From Planctomycetota bacterium (GTDB taxonomy: Bacteria > Planctomycetota > UBA11346), in the NCBI GenBank assembly GCA_003136555.1, contig PLEW01000244.1, forward strand, positions 34,114 to 77,655: DNA of 43,542 bases. Reading direction: 5' to 3'. Made by a program: the position numbers and the translations under genes. Shown here in pieces: positions 1,560-28,079 of the stretch. Position 1 is the first letter of the stretch. Every line of letters begins with the position of its first letter. The notes beneath the pieces were generated by a model that saw nothing but the letters and a program-made list of their open reading frames with translations, ran no database searches and was not told where the DNA came from.

Positions 1560-3005
1560 ATGGCGCTCCCAGCTCCTCTCGTACCTCTCCATGAGGCGAC
1601 CCTCATCGACGAGGCGGCCGTGCTGCTCGGCCAGGATCTCGGGGTGCTGATGGAGAATGCCGGCGCCGCCATCGCCCGCGAGGCGCAGCAGCTCGCCCCG
1701 GACGGCACCATCCTGGTCGCCTGCGGTCCGAGCAACAATGGCGGGGACGGCTACGTATGCGCCCGGCTGCTCGCCCAGTCTGGTCGCCGTGTGCAGGTGT
1801 GGCCGGTGGTCAAGCCGCGCAGCGAGCTGTGCGAGGCGCAGGCCCAGCGCCTGCCGTCATCCGTCGAGCTGCTCACGGCGGTGCCGGGCGAGCCCCCGGC
1901 ACTGCTCATCGATGCCGTCCTGGGCGCCGGCATGCGCGGCCGACCCAGGGAACCGATCGCCTCGGGGCTAGTGGCCCTGAAGGCGCTCGCGTGCAAGATC
2001 CTGGCGGCCGACGTGCCGAGCGGCCTGGGAAGCGACCTCTGCCTGCCCGCGACCCTCACGGTCTGCCTGCAAGTGGCCAAGCTCGAGCTCCTGCGGCAGA
2101 GCGGCATCGGCGAGTTCAAGACGGTCGACATCGGGGTGCTGCCGGCTGCCTACCAGGATGTCCAGCCGACCTGCTTCCGGCGCTTCCCGCCGCTGAAACG
2201 GACAGGGCACAAGGGCACCCATGGTGAATTGCTGGTGGTCGGAGGCGGTGTGTTCCCCGGGGCCTTGGAGCTGGCGTGCCGGGCGGCGGTGATGACCGGC
2301 TGCGACCTGGTGCGCGCCTGGACCGGCGAGGGTCCCAAGCTGCCGCCGACGGTGGTCTACCACCGCCAATTCAACCGCACCCTCAGCCCGGCCGACCCGG
2401 AGGAGCTCACCCCCCTGCTGGTGCGCGCCAGCGCGGTGCTGATCGGCAATGGCCTGGGCCGCGAGCCGGGCTGCCATGAGGCGGCCCAGCAGGCCTTCAG
2501 CCTGGCCGTCGAGATGGGGGTGCCGGTGATCGTCGATGCCGATGCCATCGCCGCGCTCACCGACCAGCTGCGCAACCTTCCCGATGGCGATGCCCACATC
2601 CTCATCACCCCGCATCGCACCGAGGCGCGCAACCTCCTCGGCATGCCCATCGATGAGGAGACCCTGCACGGCTTCGCCCGTCCCGATCGCGTGCTGCTGG
2701 CCAAGGCGGTGGTCGACCTGATCAGCGATGGCTGGCGCTGGCAGCGCAATCCCCGTGGCAATCCGCGCATGGCCGTCGGTGGCACCGGCGATGTGCTGGC
2801 CGGCCTGGCCGCCGGACTGATGGCCCGCGGCGCGAGCCCATTCGATGCCGCGCGCATGGCCGCACTGTGGATCACCAGCGCCGCCGACCAGCTGTGGCAG
2901 GAACAAGGGCCCTGCTATGACGCCGAGAGCGTGCTGGAGCGCCTTCCCGCCACGCTGCGCTCGCTGCTGGCACCGCTTGGCATGTGGCCGCCGATGGTCG
3001 GGTGA
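1560..3005 (+). CDS. nnr: Bifunctional NAD(P)H-hydrate epimerase / ADP-dependent dehydratase
   Basis: A 481-residue YjeF-type metabolite-repair enzyme. The N-terminal domain (about 1-205) epimerises damaged NADHX/NADPHX: it carries MENAG (31-35) and the signature SNNGGDGYVCARLL (58-71). The C-terminal domain (about 220-475) is the ADP-dependent (S)-NAD(P)HX dehydratase, with GTHGELLVVGG near its start, ITPHRTEARNLLG, and the nucleotide-binding GGTGDVLAG (407-415). The order and length match E. coli YjeF/Nnr (about 515 residues). I chose ATG 1560 because homology begins there (LHEATLIDEAAV); the 26 codons before it, back to 1482, read as low-complexity non-homologous sequence. It stands alone between rlmK and a convergent exported protein. 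The family is near-universal housekeeping; the call is secure from both domain signatures. Confidence 0.92.
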   Translation: MALPAPLVPLHEATLIDEAAVLLGQDLGVLMENAGAAIAREAQQLAPDGTILVACGPSNNGGDGYVCARLLAQSGRRVQVWPVVKPRSELCEAQAQRLPSSVELLTAVPGEPPALLIDAVLGAGMRGRPREPIASGLVALKALACKILAADVPSGLGSDLCLPATLTVCLQVAKLELLRQSGIGEFKTVDIGVLPAAYQDVQPTCFRRFPPLKRTGHKGTHGELLVVGGGVFPGALELACRAAVMTGCDLVRAWTGEGPKLPPTVVYHRQFNRTLSPADPEELTPLLVRASAVLIGNGLGREPGCHEAAQQAFSLAVEMGVPVIVDADAIAALTDQLRNLPDGDAHILITPHRTEARNLLGMPIDEETLHGFARPDRVLLAKAVVDLISDGWRWQRNPRGNPRMAVGGTGDVLAGLAAGLMARGASPFDAARMAALWITSAADQLWQEQGPCYDAESVLERLPATLRSLLAPLGMWPPMVG

Positions 3006-3029
3006 AGCGCGGGTGCCCACCCTGCGGCG

Positions 3030-3042
3030 AGCGCTCAGCGCT
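3030..3042 (-). terminator. Hairpin with stop codon as its loop
   Basis: Perfect palindrome AGCGC-TCA-GCGCT on the plus strand. On the minus strand the 3-nt loop is exactly the TGA stop (3037-3035) of the exported protein. It also lies 25 bases past the nnr stop, so it could serve both convergent genes. The stem is 5 bp with no T-run. Confidence 0.4.
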
Positions 3043-3820
3043 GGAGCACTTCGTCGCTGAGGACCGCATCGTCCACCGCCCCGGGCGCAATGCTGATTAC
3101 CTGCCAGCGGTGGGTGACCTCATCACTGCGGTATTCGACCACCAGCGGCAGCCCGGGAAGCGTGGCCAGGTTGCTGGCGAGCGAATCCTTGTCGTCGGCT
3201 GAACTGCTGAGCAGGCCGATGGCATAGAGGTTCGGCAGCCCTTGGGCCAGCACCACGGTGCAGGACTTGCCGTCTGCGCGCATGGCGAAGCGCTTGGCGG
3301 GGATGCCCTCAAGCACGACGTCCTGCGCATCGTGATCGAGCTCGCGCACCGGCGGCAAGGCGGCGAGCGGGACGGTTTCGCGCTTGCCGCCGACATAGAG
3401 CAGCTCCTGCGCATGCGCGCGATCGACCAGCAGGCGCGGGCCGTCACCGGTGACCTGCATGCGGCCGCCCTTGATGGTGAACACGCTGGTGCCCACTTGG
3501 ATGGGCTTGCCGCTGGCCAGTACGATCCGCTCGAGCTCGGCTTCGTAGGTGCCGATATCCTCAAGCAGGATGCGCCGCACCGTCAGGGGGGCATTGTGCA
3601 TGTCCTGCTGGGCCTTCTGCAGGCGATCGCGCAGGATGCGGGAGTAGTCATCGAGCTCCACCCGGTCGGAACCGCCGACCGACGACGGGCCGACCAGGGT
3701 CTCCTCGACGGTGATGACACCTGACCATTCCACACCCCAGCCGGAGGCCGCTAGCATCAAGGGCAAAACCAGGCCCAAGGCCCGATTAAGCCAGCCGCAG
3801 CGGTGCTTTACCATAGCCAT
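3035..3820 (-). CDS. Exported protein of unknown function
   Basis: A 261-residue protein with a plausible Sec signal: basic start (KHRCGWLNR), then hydrophobic [15 protein letters not shown], then the mature part from about residue 28. I do not recognise the family with certainty. The mature region is mostly soluble: an acidic/helical stretch around 45-90 ([13 protein letters not shown]...), then short beta-rich repeats ([21 protein letters not shown]) and alternating segments ending [18 protein letters not shown]. The pattern of 'metric stored, tested, converted' beta strands resembles LolA/DUF4412-type periplasmic proteins, but that is only an impression. Two in-frame ATGs (3820 and 3814) could start it; I used the first. 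Homology would not extend further upstream, where codons are Pro/Gly-rich and signal-like order is lost. Convergent with nnr, divergent from cysD. Confidence 0.6.
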
Positions 3821-4098
3821 CCACCGTACCGCTGCGCGCCCGGCTGGCAATTGCAGGTACCCGACAGCGGTGGCGGCGCCTAGCGGCCCACCGCAGGGGG
3901 TCGGCACGGACTGATGACGGACCGCGCTCCGGCACGGCGGACAGCGCTCTCAGGGCATGGTCTCTCCGGGGCAGGTTGTTCGGGCAGGATCGGCGGTCGA
4001 CGCTACTGGGTGTGCGGAAGCCTAGAGCGAGCCACCACTTGCCACAACGCAGGAAGGCCAACAATGCGCCCTCCCCTAACGCCGCCGAGGCCCCCACG

Positions 4099-5010
4099 AT
4101 GGATCACCTTGATCAGCTCGAGCAGCAGAGCGTCTTCATCTTCCGCGAGGCATTCCGCCATTTCGAGCGGCTGTGCATGATGTGGTCGATCGGCAAGGAT
4201 TCGACCGTGCTGCTGTGGCTCGCACGCAAGGCCTTCTTCGGGCACATCCCCTTCCCGCTCATCCACATCGACACCAGCTACAAGCTGCCGGAGATGATCC
4301 AGTACCGCGACCGGCTGGCGATGGAATACAGGCTGACCATGATAGTCGGACAGGACGAGGCCACGATCAAGGCCCGCAACACCTTCCCCGACAAGTTCAA
4401 GGCCAATCCGGCGATGAGCGAAGCCGAGCAGGCGCTCGCGCGCAAGGAGTGCTGCTCGCTGCTGAAATCGTCCGCCCTCAAGGCGACGCTCCAGGGCACT
4501 GGCATCCGCCGCCGGCTCAACCTGACCACCGGCGTCTACGACATCGACCCTGATCACGAGCCTTACCACGGGGTGATCGGCGGTGCCCGCTCGGACGAGG
4601 AAGGCAGCCGTTCGAAGGAGCGCTACTTCTCGCCTCGCGACAAGAACAACGCCTGGGATGTCGGTGATCAGCCGCCTGAACTATGGAACCAGTTCAAGAC
4701 CGATTTCGCCCCCGGTACGCACGTGCGCATCCATCCGCTCCTGGATTGGACCGAGCTGAACATCTGGGAGTACATCAAGCGCGAGTCCATCCCCACCGTG
4801 TCGCTGTACTACGACCAGGGCAAGGGCACGCGCTACCGCTCGCTCGGCTGCGGTCCCTGCCAGAAGCCGATCGAGTCGACCTCCAAGAACGTCGACGAGA
4901 TCATCGCCGAGCTCAAGAGCGGCCGCCTGCACAACATCGCCGAGCGCTCGGGCCGCATGCAGGATGGCAAGCACGGCTTGGAAGAACTGCGCCGCGAAGG
5001 ATACATGTGA
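4099..5010 (+). CDS. cysD: Sulfate adenylyltransferase subunit 2 (CysD)
   Basis: A 303-residue PP-loop ATP pyrophosphatase, the catalytic half of ATP sulfurylase, which makes adenosine-5'-phosphosulfate (APS) from sulfate and ATP. Length matches E. coli CysD (302). Visible signatures are [20 protein letters not shown] near residue 30 (PP-loop), [35 protein letters not shown] (the conserved GARRDEE-type block) and [19 protein letters not shown] 4099 gives the family's usual N-terminus ([19 protein letters not shown]) and has GAGG eight bases upstream; a longer reading frame back to 3976 adds non-homologous codons. It leads a two-gene unit with the cysN fusion 115 bases downstream. No APS/PAPS reductase or sulfotransferase is in the window, so the use of APS here (assimilation or sulfonation) is unknown. 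Confidence 0.95.
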
Positions 5011-5125
5011 TGGCCATCAGCCGCTGCAGACCGCCGCACGCACCCGCCGTGCCCGCCCGTTCCATGTGCGCGGCGGCCCGCACCACCCACCGCCTGGCCC
5101 GAGCCGCGCTTCCGGGAAGGATGCC

Positions 5126-6949
5126 ATGACTCCATCCGCACCGATCGCGGATCGCGTCGAAGCCGATCGCGACCAGATGAACATCGTCATCGTCGGCCAT
5201 GTCGACCACGGCAAGAGCACGCTGGTCGGGCGGCTGCTCGCCGACACCGGTTCGCTGCCCCAGGGCAAGCTCGAGGGCGTCCGGCGGGAATGCGAGCGCA
5301 CCGGCAAGCCGTTCGAGTACGCCTTCCTGCTCGATGCGCTCTCCGACGAGCAGGACCAGGGCATCACCATCGACACCGCGCGCTGCTTCTTCAAGTCGAG
5401 CAGCCGCGACTACATCATCATCGATGCGCCGGGGCATATCGAGTTCCTCAAGAACATGATCTCCGGTGCGGCACGAGCCGAAGCCGCGCTGCTGATGATC
5501 GATGCCAAGGAAGGGGTGCGCGAGAACTCGCGCCGGCACGGCTACATCCTCGGCATGCTCGGCATCAAGCAGGTGGTGGTGTGCGTCAACAAGATGGATC
5601 TGGTCGGCTACCGCCAGGATGTCTTCGATGGCATCGAACGGGAGTACCGCGAGTTCCTCGCGGGGATCGGCGCGGTCAGCCCGCGCAACTTCGTCCCCAT
5701 CGCCGCGCTCAGCGGTGAGAATCTCATCACGACCAGCCCCAACATGCCGTGGTACCGTGGCGAGAGCATCCTCGCGCTGCTGGACGGATTCACCAAGCAG
5801 CCGCCCAAGACCGCCCAGCCGCTGCGCATGCCGGTCCAGGCCATCTATAAGTTCACCAGCCATGGCGATGAGCGGCGCATCGTCGCCGGACGCATCGAAT
5901 CCGGCCAGGTGAAGGTCGGCGACGAGGTGGTCTTCAGCCCTTCGAACAAGAGTGCGCACATTAGCACCATCGAAGGCTTCAACACCCAGCCGAGGAGCGA
6001 GATAACGGCCGGCTGGTCGACCGGCTTCACCCTCAGCGAGGAGATCTACATCACCCGCGGCGAGGTGATGAGCCGGAAGTCCCAGGCCCCGCTGGTCGGC
6101 ACGCGCTTCCGCGCCAACCTCATCTGGCTGGGCCGCAAGCCGATGGCCCAAGGCCGCGACTACAAGCTCAAGCTGCATACCTGCACCCAACCGGTGCGCA
6201 TTCAGAGGCTGCTCAAGGTCCTGGACGCGTCCCAGCTCGACGGGGTGCTGGAGAAAGACTCCATCGGCCGTCATGACGTCGCGGATGTAATCCTCGAGAC
6301 CCGCCAGCCGGTGGCCTTCGACCTCACCACCGACATCGAAGGGACCGGCCGCTTCGTCATCGTCGACGGCTACGACGTCGCCGGCGGCGGCATCATCACC
6401 CAGGCTGTGCCGGACGACCAGGATGAACTGCGCAGCGAGGCACGCCTTCGCGACTTCTCCTGGGTGCAGGGCAGCATCACCGTCGAGGAGCGCGCCAAGC
6501 GGCTGGGCCACCGCCCGGCCCTGGTGATGTTCGTCGGCAAGCAGAACTCCGGCAAGCACCGCTATGCCCGCGCGCTCGAGCGCGCGCTGTTCGATCGCGG
6601 TACGTTCAGCTACTTCATCGACGGCACCAACGTCCTGATGGGCGTCGATCATGATCTGACCGTCGACGCCACCCAGGCCGAGCTGGTGCGCCGCTTCGGC
6701 GAAGTCGCCTACCTGCTGCTCTCCGCCGGCGTGATCCTGGTCTCCACCACCAATGCCATCGGTCTGGCCGATCACAGTTCGGTCCAGGCCCTGATCGGCG
6801 CCTATGCCTCGGTCGCCGTCGAGGTCGATCCCGGCGGCCTCTCCACCGCCCCCTGCGACCTGCGCATCCGCGGCACCGAGACCGAAGCCGAGGTGATCGC
6901 CCGGATCATCGCTCTGCTCGGCCAGAAGCAGGTGCTCGGAGCACCCTGA
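5126..6949 (+). CDS. cysN: Sulfate adenylyltransferase GTPase subunit with degenerate APS-kinase domain
   Basis: A 607-residue fusion. Residues about 17-430 are the CysN GTPase that drives ATP sulfurylase: G1 GHVDHGKST (24-32), G3 [13 protein letters not shown]4 VNKMDLV, then two beta-barrel domains. G1 is EF-Tu-like (GHVDHGKS) rather than the GSVDDGKS common in enterobacterial CysN. Residues about 455-607 align with APS kinase (CysC), but the Walker A reads GKQNSGKH (471-478) with His in place of Ser/Thr. The usual signature block after the [17 protein letters not shown] strand (normally FVDTPLEVCEARDPKGLY) is not recognisable, so kinase activity is doubtful. I recall similar degenerate C-termini in CysN proteins of some other bacteria, but cannot check. 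ATG 5126 follows GGAAGG; the longer frame from 4964 overlaps cysD and is not homologous. Confidence 0.9.
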
Positions 6950-6966
6950 CGCTGCGCTGGCGTCAG
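6946..6966 (+). terminator. Hairpin at the cysN stop codon
   Basis: Stem C-TGACGC (6946-6952) pairs with GCGTCA-G (6960-6966), 7 bp with a 7-nt loop. The TGA in the left arm is the stop codon. It sits in the 44-base gap between convergent cysN and rsmG; no T-run follows on either side. Confidence 0.45.
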
Positions 6967-6987
6967 CTGTGCGCAGAGGCACCACCG

Positions 6988-7000
6988 CCGCTCTCAGCGG
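6988..7000 (-). terminator. Hairpin at the rsmG stop codon
   Basis: Plus-strand CCGCT (6988-6992) and AGCGG (6996-7000) flank a 3-nt loop; the minus-strand stop of rsmG (6996-6994) lies across loop and stem. The 5-bp stem is short, so it is weak on its own; it is listed because it fits the pattern at other gene ends. Confidence 0.3.
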
Positions 7001-7755
7001 TTGCGCTCGAACACCACCATCACGCGCTCCGGATCGCCATCCTCGAGCACTACTCGCCGCTCGCTGACGAAGCGATAGCCGAGTCCGGTACAGGCGGCCA
7101 GCGCGGCCTGGCGTTCATCACCGGCGAACGCCGGCCCCTTGTAGATGACCAGATGCCCGGATTTCTCCAGCAGATCCGCCGCCTCCTCGAGGATCAGCGA
7201 GGCCTGGCCCATGGCCCGGCAGGTGACCAGCTGGCAGGATCGGCGCAGCCCGCTGGCCTTGATCGCCGCTTCCGATCCGCGCATATGCAGTGCGCGCGCC
7301 TGCGCATTGCCGGTCAAGGTGCAGGCGGCGGAGAGGAACTCGACCTTCTTCAGGCGCGCATCGACCATCACCCACGGCATGTTCGCCAGCCAGGTCGCCA
7401 GCGGCAGCCCCGGATAGCCACCGCCCGAGCCGAGGTCGACGCATGCCGCCCCCTGGGAGAGGTGGCGCAGGCGGGTGTCGCCGACCAGGGCCAGGCTGTC
7501 GAGGACATGGAGCTTGAGGTAATCGCGCGGTTCGATGATGGTGGTGAGGTTCAGCCAACGGTTCACCCCCACCAAATGGCCATAGAGGGCCTCCATCTGC
7601 GTACGCCTGGCATCGGCGTCGGGGATGCCGAGCTCGCGGCAACGCACGGAAAACCAGCGCCAATGCTCATCGCCGAAGGCGATCGGCGGGTGCAGGGCGG
7701 GTTCAACGCTGCCCATCGCAGGGTCATCGGCTCTTTGCAGTTCGCGTTTCGACAT
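6994..7755 (-). CDS. rsmG: 16S rRNA (guanine-N7) methyltransferase RsmG
   Basis: A 253-residue GidB/RsmG protein, which methylates N7 of G527 in the 530 loop of 16S rRNA; loss confers low-level streptomycin resistance in other bacteria. Seen: NRWLNLTTIIEPRDYLKLHVLDSL (landmarks LNLT and KLHVLDSL, 68-88), the SAM-binding CVDLGSGGGYPGLPLA (105-120), and RAMGQASLILEEAADLL, where the family usually has 'RAvAxL..Ll'. It is somewhat longer than E. coli RsmG (207) because of about 30 extra N-terminal residues. No strong Shine-Dalgarno decides between ATG 7755 and the in-frame ATG 7716 (MGSVEP); I kept the first. It is divergent from dnaX with a 115-base gap. In many bacteria rsmG travels with mnmG and parAB; none is here. 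Confidence 0.92.
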   Translation of the reverse strand: MSKRELQRADDPAMGSVEPALHPPIAFGDEHWRWFSVRCRELGIPDADARRTQMEALYGHLVGVNRWLNLTTIIEPRDYLKLHVLDSLALVGDTRLRHLSQGAACVDLGSGGGYPGLPLATWLANMPWVMVDARLKKVEFLSAACTLTGNAQARALHMRGSEAAIKASGLRRSCQLVTCRAMGQASLILEEAADLLEKSGHLVIYKGPAFAGDERQAALAACTGLGYRFVSERRVVLEDGDPERVMVVFERNR

Positions 7756-17714: not shown

Positions 17715-20336
17715 TCAGGCCTTGAGGGCGAAATCGGGGACGCGGGCGCTGAGCTGGGAGAAGTCGAGATAGCGGTAGATCGACTTCTCGAACGGATTCA
17801 CGCAGGTGCTCATGGTCTTGAGGTATTCCTCCTTGGTCGGGATGCGGCCGAGGATCGAGATCACTCCCGCGAGCTCGGCACTGCCGAGATAGACCTTCGC
17901 ATCACGTCCCATGCGGTTGTCGAAATTGCGCGTCGAGGTCGAATACACTGCTGAGCCCGGGCGCACGCGCGCCTGGTTGCCCATGCACAGTGAACATCCC
18001 GGGATCTCGCGCCGGGCGCCGATGGCGCCGAAGAGGCCGTAGTGACCCTCCTGCTGCAGCACCGCCTCGTCCATGCGGGTCGGCGGGCAGATCCAGGTGG
18101 TGGCCGTCAGGTATTCCACCTTGCTGTTCTTGTACACGTTGGCGAGTGCGCGGAAATGGCCGATATTGGTCATGCACGAACCGACGAAGACCTCGTCGAT
18201 CTTCTCGCCGGCGACCTCGCTGAGGGTCTTGATCTTGTCCGGATCGTTGGGACAGGCGAGCAGCGGCTCATCGATCTGGTTGAGGTCGATGACGAAGATG
18301 CGGGCGTACCGCTTGTCAGCCGCCGCGCTGGCCGAGCCGATCCGGCGACCGCCCACGCTGATGTCGACGGTCGACGTCAGCTCGAGCCCGGCATCGGCAC
18401 GCAGCAGGGTCGGCTTGGCCAGCCAGGCCTCCATGGCGGAGATGCGCCGCTCGATGGTCGGCCTGGCGCCATAGCCGTCCTTGAGCATGTCCTTCAGCAG
18501 AGCGATGTTGGAACGCAGGTAATCGGCGACCGAGGCCTCGGAGAGGTTAACTACGCACGCTGCCGCCGAGCGCTCGGCGCTGGCATCGGAGAGCTCGAAT
18601 GCCTGCTCGGCGGTGAGATGCTCGAGCCCCTCGATCTCGAGGATGCGACCGTTGTAGACGTTCTTCTTGCCCTTCTTCTCCAGGGTCAGATCACCGCTTT
18701 GCAGCGCGATCCAGGGAATGGCGTTGACCAGATCGCGCAGCGTCACCCCGGGACGCAGCGCGCCGGTGAATCGCACCAGCACCGATTCCGGGACATCGAG
18801 GGGCATGTAGCCGATGGCGGCGGCGAAGGCCACCAGCCCGGAGCCGCCGGGGAAGCTGATGCCGATCGGGAAGCGCGTATGGCTGTCCCCACCGGTGCCC
18901 ACCGTATCGGGCAGGCACATGCGGTTCAGCCAGCTGTGGATGATGCCATCCCCGGGACGCAGCGACACGCCGTTGCGCTCGACGATGAATTCGGGCAGCC
19001 AGCGATGCATCTTGGCATCCTTGGAGCTCGGATAGGCGGCGGTATGGCAGAAGCTCTGCATCACCAGATCGGCGGAGAAGCTCAGGCAGGCGAGCTCCTT
19101 GAGCTCGTCCGCGGTCATCGGGCCGGTAGTGTCCTGGCTGCCGACGGTGGTGACCCGGGGTTCGCAGCTCATACCTGGGCGAACGCCGCGGACGCCGCAG
19201 GCCTTGCCGATGATCTTCTGCGCCAGGGTGTAGCCCTTGCCATCGTCGTTCGGCAGGTCGGGCTTGGCGAACAGCGGTGATTCGCCGAGCTTGAGGTAGG
19301 CGCGTGCCCTCCACGTCAGCGCCCGGCCGATGATCAGGTTGGTGCGCCCGCCTGCCCGGTATTCGTCGAATACCGTCGGCGACTTGACCGTCCCCACGGC
19401 GATGGTCTTGCCGCCCTTCAGCACTTCGCCGGTCTGGGTGCGGATGGTGATCTCATCGCCGGTGGCCAGCGCGGAGATGTCGGCGGTGTAGGCCATGCCT
19501 CCGGCATCGCGGAAGGTGTCGAGGAATATCGGCGCGATGATGCCGGCCAGGAGGAAGGCGGCGGTGCGCTTGTTGGGCACGTGCGGGATGTCCCGCCCGG
19601 AATACCACATCACCGAGTTGGTCGCGGATTTGCGCGACGAGCCGGTGCCGAACACGTCACCGATGATGATGGTCCTCTTGCCGGCCTTGCGGTTGGCGTT
19701 CAAGGCCGCGATCGCACCGGGGTCCTTGGTCTTGTAGATGTCCAGCGCATGCAGCGGGATGTCCGAGCGCGTGCCCGCGCTCTGCGCCGGCGACAGATCG
19801 TCGGTATTGGTCTCGCCGGGGATCTTGTAGACCACCCCGCTGACCTCGGGCTCGATCACCGCTCGGCTGGTGAACCATTCCGCCTCGGCCCAGCTGAGGA
19901 TCACCTCCTTGGCGGTGGCGTTGCCGCCCTCGGCAAGGGCGCTGACCACCTGGAAGTTGTCGAAGATCAGCACCGTCTGCTTGAGTGCCTGGGCGGCCTG
20001 GGCGCTCAAGGCCCCTTCCAGCTCGCGCACCAGGAAGGGCACATTGTAGCCGCCGATCATCGTCCCCAGCAGACGCACCGCCTCCTCACGCGAGATCACC
20101 GGACTGGCCACATCGCCGTGCTCGACCGCGCCCAGCCACTCCGCCTTGACCTTGGCCGCCGGATCGACCCCGGGGCTGACGCGGTCGACCAACAGGCGCT
20201 TGAGCACCTCCGCCTCGCCGGCAGGCGGCTTGAGCAGCAGGGCGCACACCTGCGTGGCCTGGTCGGCGGTCAGCGGCAGCGCCGGGATGCCCAGCTTCTC
20301 TCGTTCAGCGGCGGCGGTGCGGTATTCGGCTAGCAT
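17715..20336 (-). CDS. acnB: Aconitate hydratase B
   Basis: An 873-residue AcnB-type aconitase (E. coli 865), which interconverts citrate and isocitrate in the TCA cycle and may also dehydrate 2-methylisocitrate. N-terminal HEAT-like helices (1-155) with the AcnB opening MLAEYRTAAAEREKLGIPALPL precede the swivel domain, an order unique to AcnB versus AcnA. Cluster and active-site landmarks are present: VGSCMTNIGHFRA with the first cluster Cys and PGCSLCMGNQARVRPG with the other two. Also seen: GGDSHTRFPIGISFPGGSGLVAFA. ATG 20336 matches the family start and has GAGG upstream; 27 codons further out (to 20417) run into the operator and are excluded. Divergent from a LysR regulator across a 188-base gap containing an AT-rich dyad, which suggests direct control of acnB. 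Confidence 0.95.
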   Translation of the reverse strand: MLAEYRTAAAEREKLGIPALPLTADQATQVCALLLKPPAGEAEVLKRLLVDRVSPGVDPAAKVKAEWLGAVEHGDVASPVISREEAVRLLGTMIGGYNVPFLVRELEGALSAQAAQALKQTVLIFDNFQVVSALAEGGNATAKEVILSWAEAEWFTSRAVIEPEVSGVVYKIPGETNTDDLSPAQSAGTRSDIPLHALDIYKTKDPGAIAALNANRKAGKRTIIIGDVFGTGSSRKSATNSVMWYSGRDIPHVPNKRTAAFLLAGIIAPIFLDTFRDAGGMAYTADISALATGDEITIRTQTGEVLKGGKTIAVGTVKSPTVFDEYRAGGRTNLIIGRALTWRARAYLKLGESPLFAKPDLPNDDGKGYTLAQKIIGKACGVRGVRPGMSCEPRVTTVGSQDTTGPMTADELKELACLSFSADLVMQSFCHTAAYPSSKDAKMHRWLPEFIVERNGVSLRPGDGIIHSWLNRMCLPDTVGTGGDSHTRFPIGISFPGGSGLVAFAAAIGYMPLDVPESVLVRFTGALRPGVTLRDLVNAIPWIALQSGDLTLEKKGKKNVYNGRILEIEGLEHLTAEQAFELSDASAERSAAACVVNLSEASVADYLRSNIALLKDMLKDGYGARPTIERRISAMEAWLAKPTLLRADAGLELTSTVDISVGGRRIGSASAAADKRYARIFVIDLNQIDEPLLACPNDPDKIKTLSEVAGEKIDEVFVGSCMTNIGHFRALANVYKNSKVEYLTATTWICPPTRMDEAVLQQEGHYGLFGAIGARREIPGCSLCMGNQARVRPGSAVYSTSTRNFDNRMGRDAKVYLGSAELAGVISILGRIPTKEEYLKTMSTCVNPFEKSIYRYLDFSQLSARVPDFALKA

Positions 20337-20364
20337 GGTCGGCCTCAGGGTGGTGGTTGGGCAC

Positions 20365-20393
20365 AGCCTAGGACGCGCGAGCGGCCTTACCAA
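20365..20393 (-). promoter_or_regulatory. Weak sigma70-type promoter candidate for acnB
   Basis: On the minus strand TTGGTA (20393-20388) and TAGGCT (20370-20365) with 17-base spacing. Matches to consensus are 4/6 and 3/6. Transcription would begin near 20358, about 22 bases before acnB. The dyad at 20416-20430 would then be centred near -65. Fit is modest and the call rests partly on that geometry. Confidence 0.3.
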
Positions 20394-20415
20394 TGCGAGC
20401 GACGCTGGTCGAGCC

Positions 20416-20430
20416 ATAAGAAAAACTTAT
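20416..20430. promoter_or_regulatory. LysR-type operator dyad, ATAA-N7-TTAT
   Basis: A perfect dyad ATAAGAAAAACTTAT in an AT-rich island of a GC-rich genome, between acnB and a divergent lysR gene. It fits the T-N11-A rule of LysR-type sites (T 20417, A 20429). It also equals ATAA-N7-TTAT, the site described for CcpC, the LysR protein controlling aconitase (citB) in Bacillus subtilis. That the adjacent LysR protein binds here is inferred. Confidence 0.6.
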
Positions 20431-20439
20431 CGAGTTTTT

Positions 20440-20453
20440 TTACCGATCAGTAA
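20440..20453. promoter_or_regulatory. Second dyad, TTAC-N6-GTAA
   Basis: A second inverted repeat (TTAC at 20440-20443, GTAA at 20450-20453) lies ten bases from the first dyad, on the lysR side. It could be a second half of a LysR tetramer site or lie within the lysR promoter. Its shorter arms make it less certain. Confidence 0.3.
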
Positions 20454-20524
20454 CATGCCAGGGTGCACCGGGGCCTCGGCCGGCCCCGGGCTACGCGCGT
20501 CCGCCACACCACAGGATCAACGGC

Positions 20525-21460
20525 ATGGACACCGAGCACCTGCAGCACTTCCTCCTCCTCGCGCAATCGGGGAACATGACCAAGACCGCCGCGCGCGTCC
20601 ACCTGACCCAGCCTGCCCTCTCGGGGCAGATCAAGCGCCTCGAGCATCTCCTTGGCGCGACGCTCTTCCACCGCCAGGGCCGCGGCGTGGCGCTGACCCA
20701 GGCCGGGGAGACCTTCAGGAGCTTCGCCGCCGATGCCCTGAACCAGATCGATGCCGGACGTACTGCGCTCGGTTCGCTCAGCTCGCTGGCCAGCGGCACC
20801 ATCTCGATCGGCGGCGGGGCGACCAGCACCACCTGCATCCTGCCCGCGATCATCGGCGCCTTCCACGCACGCTATCCGGGCATCCGCTTCAGCATCCGCG
20901 AGGCGACCTCGCGCACGGTGGTCGAGGCGGTGCTGTCTGGCGAGCTCGACCTCGGCCTGGTGACCCTGCCGGTGCCATCGTCGGTCGACGCGACACGTCT
21001 CTCCGTCGAGCCCTGGGTGGTGGACGAGCTGGTGCTGCTCGTCCCGCCGCATCACCCGCTGCGGAACCGGCGGCGCTTCACCTGGCGCGATCTACACAAC
21101 CAGCCCCTGATCGCCTTCGAGAGCGGCTCGGCGGTGCGTCAGCTGCTCGATCGCCAGCTCAGCCACCATGAGGTCAGGCCGTCAGTGGTCATGGAGCTGC
21201 GCGCCATCGGCACCATCACCAACATGGTCGCCGCCGGCATCGGACTGGGCTTCGTCTCGCGTCTCGCGGTGCCCCTCGCCCACGCCCTGCGCTGCGCCGA
21301 TCGCACGCTCGAACGCCAGCTCGCCGTGATCGAGCGGCGCGACCGCAGCCGGACTCCGACCATGGAGGCCTTCAGGGCCGCCCTCTTCGCATGGGAACCG
21401 ACGCCAAACCAGGCCCGCCGCGCCACGCGCAGCGAACGCTCCCGCCATGGGTCGGTGTAG
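20525..21460 (+). CDS. LysR family transcriptional regulator
   Basis: A 311-residue LTTR. The winged helix-turn-helix is at about 4-62: LQHFLLLAQSGNMTKTAARV, then LTQPALSGQIKRLEHLLGATLF with the family's recognition helix, and VALTQAGETF. The effector-binding domain (about 90-295) follows the usual RD-I/RD-II layout (GTISIGGGATSTTCILPAIIGAFHARYPGI at its start, of which GTISIGGGA is the landmark), and ends VAAGIGLGFVSRLAVP, typical of citrate/aromatic-type LTTRs. ATG 20525 has AGGA eight bases upstream. It is divergent from acnB with a perfect LTTR dyad in between, so it is probably a regulator of acnB and perhaps of itself. The ligand cannot be read from sequence; citrate is an attractive guess by analogy with CcpC. 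Confidence 0.9.
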   Translation: MDTEHLQHFLLLAQSGNMTKTAARVHLTQPALSGQIKRLEHLLGATLFHRQGRGVALTQAGETFRSFAADALNQIDAGRTALGSLSSLASGTISIGGGATSTTCILPAIIGAFHARYPGIRFSIREATSRTVVEAVLSGELDLGLVTLPVPSSVDATRLSVEPWVVDELVLLVPPHHPLRNRRRFTWRDLHNQPLIAFESGSAVRQLLDRQLSHHEVRPSVVMELRAIGTITNMVAAGIGLGFVSRLAVPLAHALRCADRTLERQLAVIERRDRSRTPTMEAFRAALFAWEPTPNQARRATRSERSRHGSV

Positions 21461-24257: not shown

Positions 24258-24283
24258 GGACGGCGCCGCACGACGCGCCGTCC
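24258..24283. terminator. 9-bp hairpin between sensor kinase and NifU-like gene
   Basis: Perfect stem GGACGGCGC (24258-24266) with GCGCCGTCC (24275-24283), 8-nt loop. It starts four bases past the sensor-kinase stop and touches the stop of the convergent NifU-like gene, so it could end both. No T-run on either side. The longest uninterrupted stem found in the window. Confidence 0.5.
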
Positions 24284-25128
24284 TAGGGCGCATCCTCGAC
24301 GCCGAGGCCGGCATCGATCTCGGACTTCAGCAGCTGCTCCAGGGAAGCGAGCACGGCGCCGCGACCTGGCAGATCGCCGACCAGCCCGCCTTTCACCCGC
24401 ACCTTCACCACCCGGCCATCGAAATCCCAAAGTTCGAGATCCCCGCCGGCGGAACGCACCTCGGGCATGAGCTTGGACTGGACCACCTGCTGGATGCGCA
24501 GCAGGGTCTGGATGCGGCCCTTGGGACCGGCCGGCGCGGCGTGCGCGGCGGGTGCCGCGGCGGGCGCGTGCAGCATCTCGTCAATGATCTTGGGGATGTC
24601 GCTGCGGCAGCTGCCGCAGCCGGTGCCCGCGCCGGTGGCATTGACGACCTCCTCGGGGGTGGTGCATCCCAGGGTGGAGACCGCCTGGCGCACGGTCTCA
24701 TCCAGCACCCCGAAGCAGCGGCACAGCAGGGGATCGAGATCCTGGTCGTGCTCGCTCTCGCCACCCTGGTAGGCGGCCAGGGCGGCGTGCAAGCCGACCC
24801 TCCCCCAGAGGAGCGGCGGCAGTGCCGCCGGGTCCAGCCCGCCGAGGTGGCGCGTCAGCGCGAGCGGCCCCACCGTCTTGGCCTCGTCAAGCTCCATGCC
24901 GAGCAGAAGCTCGGCCATGGCCGAGGTGGCCGCCACCTGGTCAGCGCAGTTGAACACCTGGAACTTGGCCTGGACGATGCGCTTGCCGGCCGCATCCACG
25001 CTGAGGTAGAAGCGCAGCGCATCCCCGACCACGATCGAGCCGACGTCCCCCACCGCACTGGCGTTGAGCAGCTTGCCGACATTGCGGGGCCGGCGCGCGT
25101 GGTCATCGAGGAGTTCGGCGGGCGTCAT
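24283..25128 (-). CDS. NifU-like protein keeping only the ferredoxin-type cysteines
   Basis: A 281-residue protein with the three-domain plan of NifU: IscU-like scaffold (1-122), central BFD-like [2Fe-2S] domain (130-190) and C-terminal Nfu domain (203-275). The central domain has its ligands, C136, C138, C171 and C174 (LCRCFG ... GCGSC). The flanking domains do not. In the scaffold, the first Cys (PxCGD) is V34 in VVGD, only C61 (VFNCADQVAA) remains, and the HCS motif after LPP reads GRV. In the Nfu domain the CxxC is replaced by L249 and D252 (KGGLVGDLPG). It may be a 2Fe-2S electron carrier or a regulatory relic rather than a scaffold. ATG 25128 gives the IscU-like N-terminus; longer frames to 25368 overlap the peptidase gene. 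It follows that gene by 47 bases. Confidence 0.8.
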   Translation of the reverse strand: MTPAELLDDHARRPRNVGKLLNASAVGDVGSIVVGDALRFYLSVDAAGKRIVQAKFQVFNCADQVAATSAMAELLLGMELDEAKTVGPLALTRHLGGLDPAALPPLLWGRVGLHAALAAYQGGESEHDQDLDPLLCRCFGVLDETVRQAVSTLGCTTPEEVVNATGAGTGCGSCRSDIPKIIDEMLHAPAAAPAAHAAPAGPKGRIQTLLRIQQVVQSKLMPEVRSAGGDLELWDFDGRVVKVRVKGGLVGDLPGRGAVLASLEQLLKSEIDAGLGVEDAP

Positions 25129-25161
25129 GTGCCATGCAGGGTTGCCACAGGCGCGCGTGAA

Positions 25162-25183
25162 GCAAGCGCCTGACGCTACTTGC
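25162..25183 (-). terminator. Hairpin around the M16 peptidase stop
   Basis: Plus-strand GCAAG (25162-25166) and CTTGC (25179-25183) enclose 12 bases including the stop (25178-25176, minus strand); an inner AGCG/CGCT pairing is an alternative. It lies between two same-strand genes, so it may be an mRNA processing or stability element rather than a full terminator. Confidence 0.3.
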
Positions 25184-28079
25184 CTGCCGGCAGGGCGGAT
25201 CCGGCACACACCCCCACCACCTGCAGGGCCTTGTCGTTGATCAGGTAGCGTTTCGCCAGCGCGCTGATCTCGGCGCTGGTGATGGAGGCGTAGTCCGCCT
25301 CCATCCGCTCCGCCCACTCGATGCGGAAGGGCTGGCTGGCGGAACGGCTGAGCACGGATGCCAGCCAATATTGGTTCTGCTGGCGCTGGGCCGCCAGGTT
25401 CTTGAGGATGGGGGTCATGACCTGGGCGAGCAGCTCATCGGAGACGCCCTTCTCAGCGAGCTCCTGGGCGATCGCCAGGATCGCGGAGCGTCCCTCCTCC
25501 ACCTTGGCCGGGGCCACCCCGACCTGGGCGATGAGGTAGCCGAAGCCGCGATAGGCTTCGCTGGCGGTGCGCATCGCGAAGGGGCTGTAGGAATCCCCGA
25601 GCTCCTGGCGGATCTTGACGCGCATGCGCTCGTCCAGCACGCCCGCCAGCACCCCGACCCTGCGGGTCCTGGAGATGTCATAGAAATCCTCGGTCGGCCA
25701 GGCCACATCGATCAGCGCCCGCGCCACCGTCCCCGGCACCTCGATGCGGTGCAGACCGGCGGGCAGGGGCGGGCTCTCGGCCAGGTGGGAGGTGTCGATC
25801 GGCTGCCCAGGCGCGGCCCTGGTGGCCAGGCCGACGACCGGCTGGCGCGTCGGCAGGCTGCCGAAGTACTGGGCGATCAGGCTGGCGGTGGATTCCAGCT
25901 GCACATCGCCGACCACGTTGACGACAAGGGGCGCGCTCTCCAGGTAGGGCGTCAACCACGGACGGACGGCGGCGAAGCCGACGCCAGCTGCCTCCTCCGG
26001 GGTAGCCGCCCGGCGTTGCGGGGCACCGCTGACGGCGAGCGCCTGGAAGGTGCGGCCTACCTGCGCATCCAGGCTGGTGGCGATGCTCTGCAGCTGCTGG
26101 TGCCATTCCGCCTTGGCGATAGCCTCGCCGTCGGAGCGCCAGCCCGGATCGGTGAGGAAGGCGCGGATCTCCTGGAAGCAGAGCTCGAGCTCCTTGGGCA
26201 GGCAGGTCGCGGTGAAGGCGAAACCATCCTCGTCGAAACGTGGACCGCTGAGGTGCACCGAGCTGGCCGCCAGGACATCGTGCAGCTCGTCCGCCGAATG
26301 CTTGCCCAGGCCGCCGGCGAGGAAGGCCCGCTCAGCGAACTCCCGCAGTCCCGGTTGGTGTGGCGCCGCTGGGATGGTGATGCGCACCTGGATCAGCACC
26401 TCGTTGGGCTTGACCTCGGTATGCCTGAGCCGCACCGCCACGCCATTCGCGAGCGTGCCCGGCCAGATTGCCAGAGGCAGGGTCGCCGGATGCTCGTCGA
26501 GCCAGCGGCCTGGGGCGGGCGCCTGGCCATAGGCCCAGGTCGCGGTCTTCTGCTGGAGCGGCGGCTCGACCTGGACCAGCTGGGAGGCCTTGTAAGCGGC
26601 TGCGAGCTTCTGTGCCCCATCGGCACCGAGATCATCGGCCCCGGTGACCACCAGGGCGCCATGGCCATCCGGGCAGGTCTTGGCCCAGATCGCCTGCACC
26701 TGGGCGGCATCGGCATGCTCGATCATCGGCCGCAGGAGGTCGCGCTCCTGCGCCGGGCTGAGGAACACCTCATCGGCATGCACCGAGCGGTAGAGGGCGT
26801 CGGTGAGCGCGCTGTTGCTGCGGTTGGCTGCGTGCGCGACCGCCTCGTCGAGCTGCGCGCCGAATTCGGCGCGCGCCACTGTGAGCTCGGCCTCGGTGGG
26901 ACCATAGTGCAGGAAGCGGCGCACCTCCTGTTCGATCACCGCTACCGCCTCGAGCGCGCCGCCCTGGCGCAGCTTGGCCTGGATGCCGGCGTGGAAGAGG
27001 TCGAGCCACTGGTACGACTCCGCCTCCGCCTCGATCAGCGGCCCCTGGGGATGCTTGGCGATGGAATCGCGGAAGCGGCGCGACACGATCATCTCCCCCA
27101 GGGTGCGCAGGACGCCTTCCTGGCGAGCCGCGAGGCTGTCATGCGGGCGGGGCCGGCCGCGCACCAGGATCAGGCTCAGGCTGGTGCCCTCCGCCTCCGG
27201 CTCGCGGTGGTAGCTGGCATCGAAGCCGTCGCTCTTGGGCTGGCCAATGGCGGGAGGCTGGGGCGCGGGGGTGCGCGCCTTCAGGCCCGAGAAGGCGGTG
27301 CGGATGCGCTCGCTGATGGTGGCGGGGTCGATGGCGCCGGCGACGGCCAGGACCATGCGTTCCGGCCGGTACCAGGTGTCGTAATAGTCCCGCAGCAGGC
27401 TCGCATCGGCATCCTCGATCGCCGACTTGATGCCGATGGCGAAGCGGTCGGGGATGAGCAAGCCGGGATAGTAGGCGTGATAGATGGTCAGCCACTCACG
27501 GAAACCGGGATTGTCGCGATCGCGCATCTCCGCCAGGATCACGCCGCGTTCGCGATTGACCTCGATGGGCGAGATGAGCATGCCACCGGCATAATCGGCC
27601 ATCACCTGCAGCCCGGTGGTGATGGTCGCCGCCCGCGGATCGGGCAGATCGAGCTTGTAGACGGTCTCATCGAAGCTGGTATGGGCGTTGGTATCGGCGC
27701 CGAATGCCAGGCCGAGTCCCTGGAGTACGGTGATGAGCTTGCCGGGTGGGAAGTGGGTGGTGCCATTGAAGGCCATATGCTCGAGGAAATGCGCCAGCCC
27801 ACGCTGCTCCTCGCGCTCGAGCAGGCTGCCGCTCTCCACCAGGAGGCGCAGGGATACCTTGTCGAGGGGCTGCTGGTTGGGCATCAGGCAGTAGCGCATG
27901 CCATTGTCGAGCCGGCCCCAGGTGACCGCCGGGTCGGGATGCAGGTCGCTGACCGCCTGCGGGAATTCCGGCGCCACCACCACACCGTCCGCCGCGCCGA
28001 AGAGCACGGCCCCCCCCTGGAGCAGGCCGAGGGCAAGGCCGAGGCTGAGTGCGAAGATCGGTGGCAGGCGCTGGCTCAT
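25176..28079 (-). CDS. M16 family zinc peptidase, exported
   Basis: A 967-residue pitrilysin/insulinase-type protein in the full-length form with two halves. The signal peptide is clear: MSQRLPPIFALSLGLALGLL, mature from about 30. The inverted zinc motif HFLEH (97-101) is intact, followed by the third ligand Glu177 (NRERGVILAEM). The opening WGRLDNGMRYCLMPNQQP is the usual 'LxNGLxvxxxxxP' start of the family. The second half (from about 480) has the M16 fold without an active site, with domain landmarks such as PLVVNVVGD and RVGVLAGVLDERMR near the end. Probably a periplasmic protease clearing peptides. Start: ATG 28079, with AGAGG seven bases upstream; TTG two codons earlier is less likely. 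Upstream of the NifU-like gene on the same strand, with no obvious functional tie. Confidence 0.92.
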   Translation of the reverse strand: MSQRLPPIFALSLGLALGLLQGGAVLFGAADGVVVAPEFPQAVSDLHPDPAVTWGRLDNGMRYCLMPNQQPLDKVSLRLLVESGSLLEREEQRGLAHFLEHMAFNGTTHFPPGKLITVLQGLGLAFGADTNAHTSFDETVYKLDLPDPRAATITTGLQVMADYAGGMLISPIEVNRERGVILAEMRDRDNPGFREWLTIYHAYYPGLLIPDRFAIGIKSAIEDADASLLRDYYDTWYRPERMVLAVAGAIDPATISERIRTAFSGLKARTPAPQPPAIGQPKSDGFDASYHREPEAEGTSLSLILVRGRPRPHDSLAARQEGVLRTLGEMIVSRRFRDSIAKHPQGPLIEAEAESYQWLDLFHAGIQAKLRQGGALEAVAVIEQEVRRFLHYGPTEAELTVARAEFGAQLDEAVAHAANRSNSALTDALYRSVHADEVFLSPAQERDLLRPMIEHADAAQVQAIWAKTCPDGHGALVVTGADDLGADGAQKLAAAYKASQLVQVEPPLQQKTATWAYGQAPAPGRWLDEHPATLPLAIWPGTLANGVAVRLRHTEVKPNEVLIQVRITIPAAPHQPGLREFAERAFLAGGLGKHSADELHDVLAASSVHLSGPRFDEDGFAFTATCLPKELELCFQEIRAFLTDPGWRSDGEAIAKAEWHQQLQSIATSLDAQVGRTFQALAVSGAPQRRAATPEEAAGVGFAAVRPWLTPYLESAPLVVNVVGDVQLESTASLIAQYFGSLPTRQPVVGLATRAAPGQPIDTSHLAESPPLPAGLHRIEVPGTVARALIDVAWPTEDFYDISRTRRVGVLAGVLDERMRVKIRQELGDSYSPFAMRTASEAYRGFGYLIAQVGVAPAKVEEGRSAILAIAQELAEKGVSDELLAQVMTPILKNLAAQRQQNQYWLASVLSRSASQPFRIEWAERMEADYASITSAEISALAKRYLINDKALQVVGVCAGSALPAGK

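Follow-up and report, generated by a model that had tools for sequence, protein, structure and literature searches.

The window, by which we mean the whole 43,542-nucleotide stretch of DNA analyzed here, contains a gene for aconitate hydratase B (acnB; 17715 to 20336, minus strand) and, divergent from it, a gene for a LysR-type transcriptional regulator (LTTR; 20525 to 21460, plus strand), with the two start codons 188 bp apart. The 873-aa AcnB matches PRK09238 at 1269 bits and carries the Aconitase_B_N and Aconitase_2_N domains; its start, an ATG at 20336, is kept among relatives. The 311-aa regulator has the domain plan and approximate length (about 300 aa) of an LTTR, with an N-terminal HTH_1 domain (71.4 bits; cut-off, 26.6) and a C-terminal LysR_substrate domain (160.8 bits; cut-off, 28) in Pfam. 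Its structure model has a pLDDT of 92.8, and the fold neighbors of this model are LTTRs. Among named relatives, the nearest are metagenome-assembled genomes of Planctomycetota, which places the window in that phylum.

Within the gap, an AT-rich patch in GC-rich DNA houses a perfect dyad (ATAAGAAAAACTTAT; 20416 to 20430, center 20423), as an earlier note on this DNA had claimed. By pattern matching, it is an exact ATAA-N7-TTAT, with an AT-N11-AT frame and the T-N11-A form of an LTTR recognition site, and this match together with its conservation makes it a putative site of that kind. The window has one copy of the pattern, where shuffles would give 0.01. The whole 5.9-Mb genome contains it in seven places, compared with six for a control pattern read backwards; the short motif is thus not significant genome-wide, and the case for the dyad therefore stands on conservation. 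The fuller form ATAAG-N5-CTTAT has a single occurrence in the genome, which is the acnB-lysR dyad. A genome-wide regulon of the exact dyad was rejected, since the six remaining sites are as many as the control gave, and reading of their flanking frames by eye turned up no recognizable TCA-cycle genes. One site in the same genome (ATAAATTATGCTTAT; positions 1501 to 1515 of L186, contig C188) lies between two divergent open frames with high GC3, which by eye are unrelated to the TCA cycle.

Alignment of the acnB-lysR gaps of relatives had been proposed in the earlier note as one test that could refute its reading, and the dyad was found in every relative in the family with this gene pair. In four of them (L002, L003, L004, and L008), the intergenic regions can barely be aligned outside the dyads (ATAAGTAACGCTTAT, ATCAATTTTGGTTAT, ATAAATTTCCGTTAT, and ATAAGGATTACTTAT) and a CCAAT element 25 to 26 bp before them. 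Dinucleotide shuffles of each of the five intergenic regions, window first, matched the observed score in 3, 2, 57, 0, and 0 of 2000 cases. A sixth pair (L162) came from a search by acnB alone, after the motif was defined; it has ATAAGAATCGCTTAT with CCAAT at -25, on a contig that stops within the start of lysR. All six family genomes with divergent acnB and lysR therefore carry the dyad (five at 8/8 positions and one at 7/8), in register and at a constant distance from the CCAAT/-35 element, while the LysR proteins are 60 to 73% identical. In contrast, none of 12 family genomes in which acnB has no neighboring lysR has the dyad beside acnB (best, four to six of eight positions), and none has CCAAT at that place. 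By arithmetic this division amounts to 1 in 18,564 if the loci are taken as independent, which they are not entirely, because they are related. The 12 genomes, which include two of the same genus (G001 and G002), also indicate that acnB can do without the regulator.

The conserved CCAAT reads as ATTGG on the acnB strand, where it would form the -35 element of acnB (TTGGTA; 20388 to 20393, minus strand), conserved in the six family genomes. At 16 to 18 bp beyond ATTGG, the relatives and the window have TAGGCT, TATCGT, TACGAT, TAGGAT, or TAGCAT; in the window, the putative -10 element is TAGGCT (20365 to 20370, minus strand) after a 17-bp spacer, and transcription is predicted to start near 20358. 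This promoter matches the consensus at only 7 of 12 positions, and a strict sigma-70 scan of the gap reported no promoter, so it is inferred from conservation. A search of the gap for terminators found none. We scored the -35/-10 signal at every distance from the dyad center, group by group, and the best offsets were 32.5 bp in the window family, 31.5 bp in the acnA group, and 32.5 bp in the gammaproteobacterial acnB group. These offsets place the dyad center at about -65 of the aconitase promoter, the classical position of an LTTR recognition site, and the T-N11-A dyad of the window likewise has its predicted center at -65 of acnB. The suggestion that a weak promoter would put the dyad near -65 thus gains from the agreement of three groups of relatives, although the promoter itself is weak and the strict scanner is silent. 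A LysR operator at this position of acnB, in a distant, GC-rich phylum, was the central proposal of the earlier note; it holds up to the extent that the site is conserved with the gene pair, with binding as a prediction.

On the other strand, a putative -35 element of lysR (TTATCG; 20427 to 20432, plus strand) shares bases with the right arm of the dyad, an overlap seen by eye in L002, L003, and L004 too, and may be followed after an 18-bp spacer by a -10 element (TAACAT; 20451 to 20456, plus strand). In the acnA and gammaproteobacterial groups, a second AT-N11-AT box, a putative activation site, is centered 22 bp from the first, on the side of the aconitase -35 element. At the corresponding place, the window has what may be a degenerate second site (CCAATGCGAG; 20390 to 20399); in its family, the outer half of the box alone is kept (AATcG), and the second arm is absent.

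Nearly all of the closer relatives of the window LysR have an aconitase gene next to them or close by. We sampled these relatives by searching genome contigs, together with 392 genomes of the phylum, with the LysR protein only, and neighbors were examined afterwards. A tree of 136 LTTRs places 85 of them, including the window LysR, in one clade (SH-aLRT 96), which has support of 99/94 in a more careful tree of 50. An aconitase gene lies within the fetched flank in 79 of the 85 members, and several of the other six are cut off by the end of the contig or locus. The arrangements comprise divergent AcnB, divergent AcnA, downstream AcnA (in Phycisphaerales at distances of up to about 3.5 kb), and a third type, identified in L107 as mitochondrial-type aconitase (971 bits; cut-off, 825). 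A single origin of all AcnB-linked members was rejected in the tree of 50 (AU test, p = 6.75e-5). According to the titles of the metagenome-assembled genomes, which can be wrong, the clade spans Planctomycetota, Myxococcota, and Pseudomonadota. No gene family other than aconitase recurs as a neighbor across the divergent groups, and outside the clade only one of the 136 rows (L035) has an aconitase-superfamily neighbor. That row, from a genome of the window's family (G020), is a distant LysR (about 30% identity) divergent from an aconitase-superfamily gene with a 26% match to AcnA. Thr100, Ser129, Arg205, Arg226, and Arg264 are invariant in the clade.

LysR control of aconitase is known mainly from Firmicutes, through CcpC and CcpE. 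Searches of the openly accessible literature gave no published account of this clade or of a LysR-aconitase pair outside Firmicutes, which is weak evidence of novelty. The best named NCBIfam models for the clade are LysR_Sec_metab (NF040786), CynR (NF008416), CidR (NF047520), and GltC (NF053705), at about 150 to 205 bits; all of these scores are under the curated cut-offs, and none of the models describes an aconitase-linked regulator. The clade is apparently an undescribed group of LTTRs dedicated to aconitase and distinct from CcpC.

The operators of the clade share a frame and differ in their letters. AT-N11-AT is invariant in all 11 intergenic regions of the acnA group and in 31 gammaproteobacterial ones. 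The former have sites of the form AT(A/C/T)(A/G)-N7-T(T/C/G)AT or close to it, whereas the usual form in the gammaproteobacterial and Myxococcota acnB loci is ATGC-N7-GCAT, or else a hybrid in which one arm is ATAA. The automatic search for the best dyad chose the activation site in several gammaproteobacterial loci and the wrong place in L047, and anchors were reset on a conserved AATnGAT element; the gammaproteobacterial consensus is thus partly dependent on the anchors. Scoring that used no anchors found 8/8 ATGC-N7-GCAT dyads in 16 gammaproteobacterial and Myxococcota loci. The site also varies with residues 34 and 35 of the recognition helix. Where these are xQ (GQ, AQ, SQ, or NQ; 16 loci), the arms are of the A/T type and none has GC arms, and where they are RR (38 loci), 29 have a GCAT arm. 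Such covariation of helix and site is as expected of protein-DNA coevolution, although a single ancestral change may explain most of it.

Judged from these sequence comparisons, the dyad is very probably a genuine control site of the adjacent LysR. We think it highly probable that it is, more specifically, the high-affinity site of a dedicated aconitase LTTR that would control both acnB and its own gene. A LysR tetramer would sit on the dyad at -65 of acnB, with its second dimer reaching towards the acnB -35 element at an activation site at about -43, which is a half-site only here. The ligand-bound regulator would activate acnB, the ligand most likely being citrate or another substrate of aconitase, and LysR would repress its own gene, as is expected because the dyad overlaps the lysR -35 element. 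Much of this arrangement is shared with classical divergent LTTR activators such as PltR-pltL, which have a divergent gene, a T-N11-A dyad at -65, a second site towards -35, and an overlap of the site with the promoter of the regulator itself. Unlike in those systems, the target here is a central TCA-cycle enzyme, which is kept while its family switches among AcnA, AcnB, and the mitochondrial type.

One alternative concerns the ligand part of this scheme only. It is possible, but on balance doubtful, that LysR senses redox or nitrosative stress that damages the Fe-S cluster of aconitase, or 2-oxoglutarate, rather than a tricarboxylate. By both sequence and fold, the nearest solved full-length structure is CcmR, the Rubisco operon transcriptional regulator of Synechocystis (PDB 5y2v), solved with 2-oxoglutarate, and OxyR follows by fold; in addition, open reading frames near the pair in L107 (Myxococcota) read like a hybrid cluster protein and an oxidoreductase. 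However, CcmR is only about 24% identical and has different target genes, and fold neighbors among LTTRs say little on the ligand. The clade has no invariant cysteine, so that redox sensing of the OxyR kind is unlikely, and the hybrid cluster protein does not recur at other loci.

The site might instead serve autoregulation of lysR only, with acnB as a divergent bystander. Autoregulation alone is common among LTTRs, the dyad overlaps the putative lysR -35 element, and the lysR start codon follows the site after about 10 bp in many gammaproteobacterial loci. We nevertheless regard this reading as unlikely, because the spacing that is fixed is that to the aconitase -35 element (31.5 to 32.5 bp in three groups), whereas the lysR start codon may be anywhere from 6 to 297 bp from the site. 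A conserved second site towards the aconitase promoter also argues against it, as does the history of the pairing: aconitase is the sole recurrent neighbor, and the pairing was kept when the type of enzyme changed.

The earlier note had called the arrangement CcpC-like, and with respect to the sequence and position of the box, it is. The CcpC box of citB in Bacillus subtilis is ATAA-N7-TTAT with its center at -66 (PMC8514465), and acnB has the same first box near that position. A true CcpC orthologue, that is, a citrate repressor of the CcpC/CcpE type with a two-box operator like that of citB, would further account for the shared regulator superfamily, for the shared activity of the target enzyme, and for the invariant clade serine, Ser129, which has the same number as a CcpC citrate contact in an alignment to CcpC that reaches residue 146 only. 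Yet we consider such orthology very improbable, and it was rejected on the profile score, on the absence of CcpC from 294 genomes of the phylum, and on the missing second box. Against the NCBIfam CcpC model (NF058504), the window LysR scores 84.0 bits (cut-off, 400), CcpC being only its 24th-best model, and the clade members L072 and L052 score 78 and 76 bits. A search of these 294 Planctomycetota genomes found no CcpC. CcpC structures are absent among the 50 PDB fold matches listed and stand far down the PDB matches by sequence. The citrate-binding Arg147 and Arg260 of BaCcpC have tentative counterparts in the clade, a Thr at 147 and an Arg at 264, both invariant, since the match to CcpC stops at residue 146. 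The second half-dyad of CcpC, TATT at -27 to -33, is absent from the predicted acnB promoter, which reads TCGCATTGGTAAGGCCGCTCG from -40 to -20; the second site lies instead at about -43.

The shared box can be understood as a resemblance that runs through the whole LTTR family, since ATAA-N7-TTAT is one form of the general T-N11-A pattern. The sites of CcpE have been described as T-N11-A as well (PMC11315280), and the unrelated PltR-pltL system uses a T-N11-A box at -74 to -53 (PMC3382589), which points to general LTTR usage. Like CcpC of Bacillus and Listeria and CcpE of Staphylococcus at citB, the window protein is a LysR-type regulator at an aconitase promoter, but its profile scores set it apart in a different LTTR subfamily, it is dedicated to aconitase and encoded divergently from it, its partner is AcnB, and it is predicted to be an activator. 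The likeliest account of the resemblance to CcpC is that an LTTR was recruited to aconitase independently. Where the earlier note had offered convergence or an old link between citrate sensing and aconitase, the link between LTTR and aconitase does appear to be old and widespread, but through a clade other than that of CcpC.

That the dyad arose by chance as a palindrome in the AT-rich patch of the promoter, or serves an unrelated factor, scarcely seems credible: the seven genomic ATAA-N7-TTAT sites do about equal the reversed control, but the dyad keeps its register in six genomes whose gaps can otherwise hardly be aligned, is absent where lysR is absent, and covaries with the recognition helix.

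Taken more broadly, the comparison somewhat favors the view that one ancient LTTR clade has served as a dedicated aconitase sensor-regulator in several phyla. The regulator would have followed function, with AcnA, AcnB, and the mitochondrial type swapped while the operator geometry stayed fixed and its letters changed with two helix residues (xQ with ATAA and RR with ATGC...GCAT). A different LTTR clade appears to do the job of CcpC and CcpE in Planctomycetota, Myxococcota, and Pseudomonadota, beside three aconitase families. The clade lends itself to comparative study of how regulators hold on to a target function through replacement of the gene that provides it; its apparent two-residue switch in DNA recognition is directly testable, and its members are a possible source of new tricarboxylate biosensors.

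Several neighboring genes are also of note. In six gammaproteobacterial loci, an acetyl-CoA synthetase-like frame lies downstream of lysR, in L087 at about 1 kb. In L107 (JAJDAP010000116.1), the frames beside the pair of mitochondrial-type aconitase and LTTR (1692 to 7719), as read from their translations, resemble an Hcr-type oxidoreductase and a hybrid cluster protein, which hints at a context of nitrosative or Fe-S stress in this Myxococcota lineage. In the window itself, a frame at 24283 to 25368, about 4 kb from the gene for the Fe-S enzyme AcnB, reads like a NifU-type Fe-S scaffold protein, possibly by coincidence.
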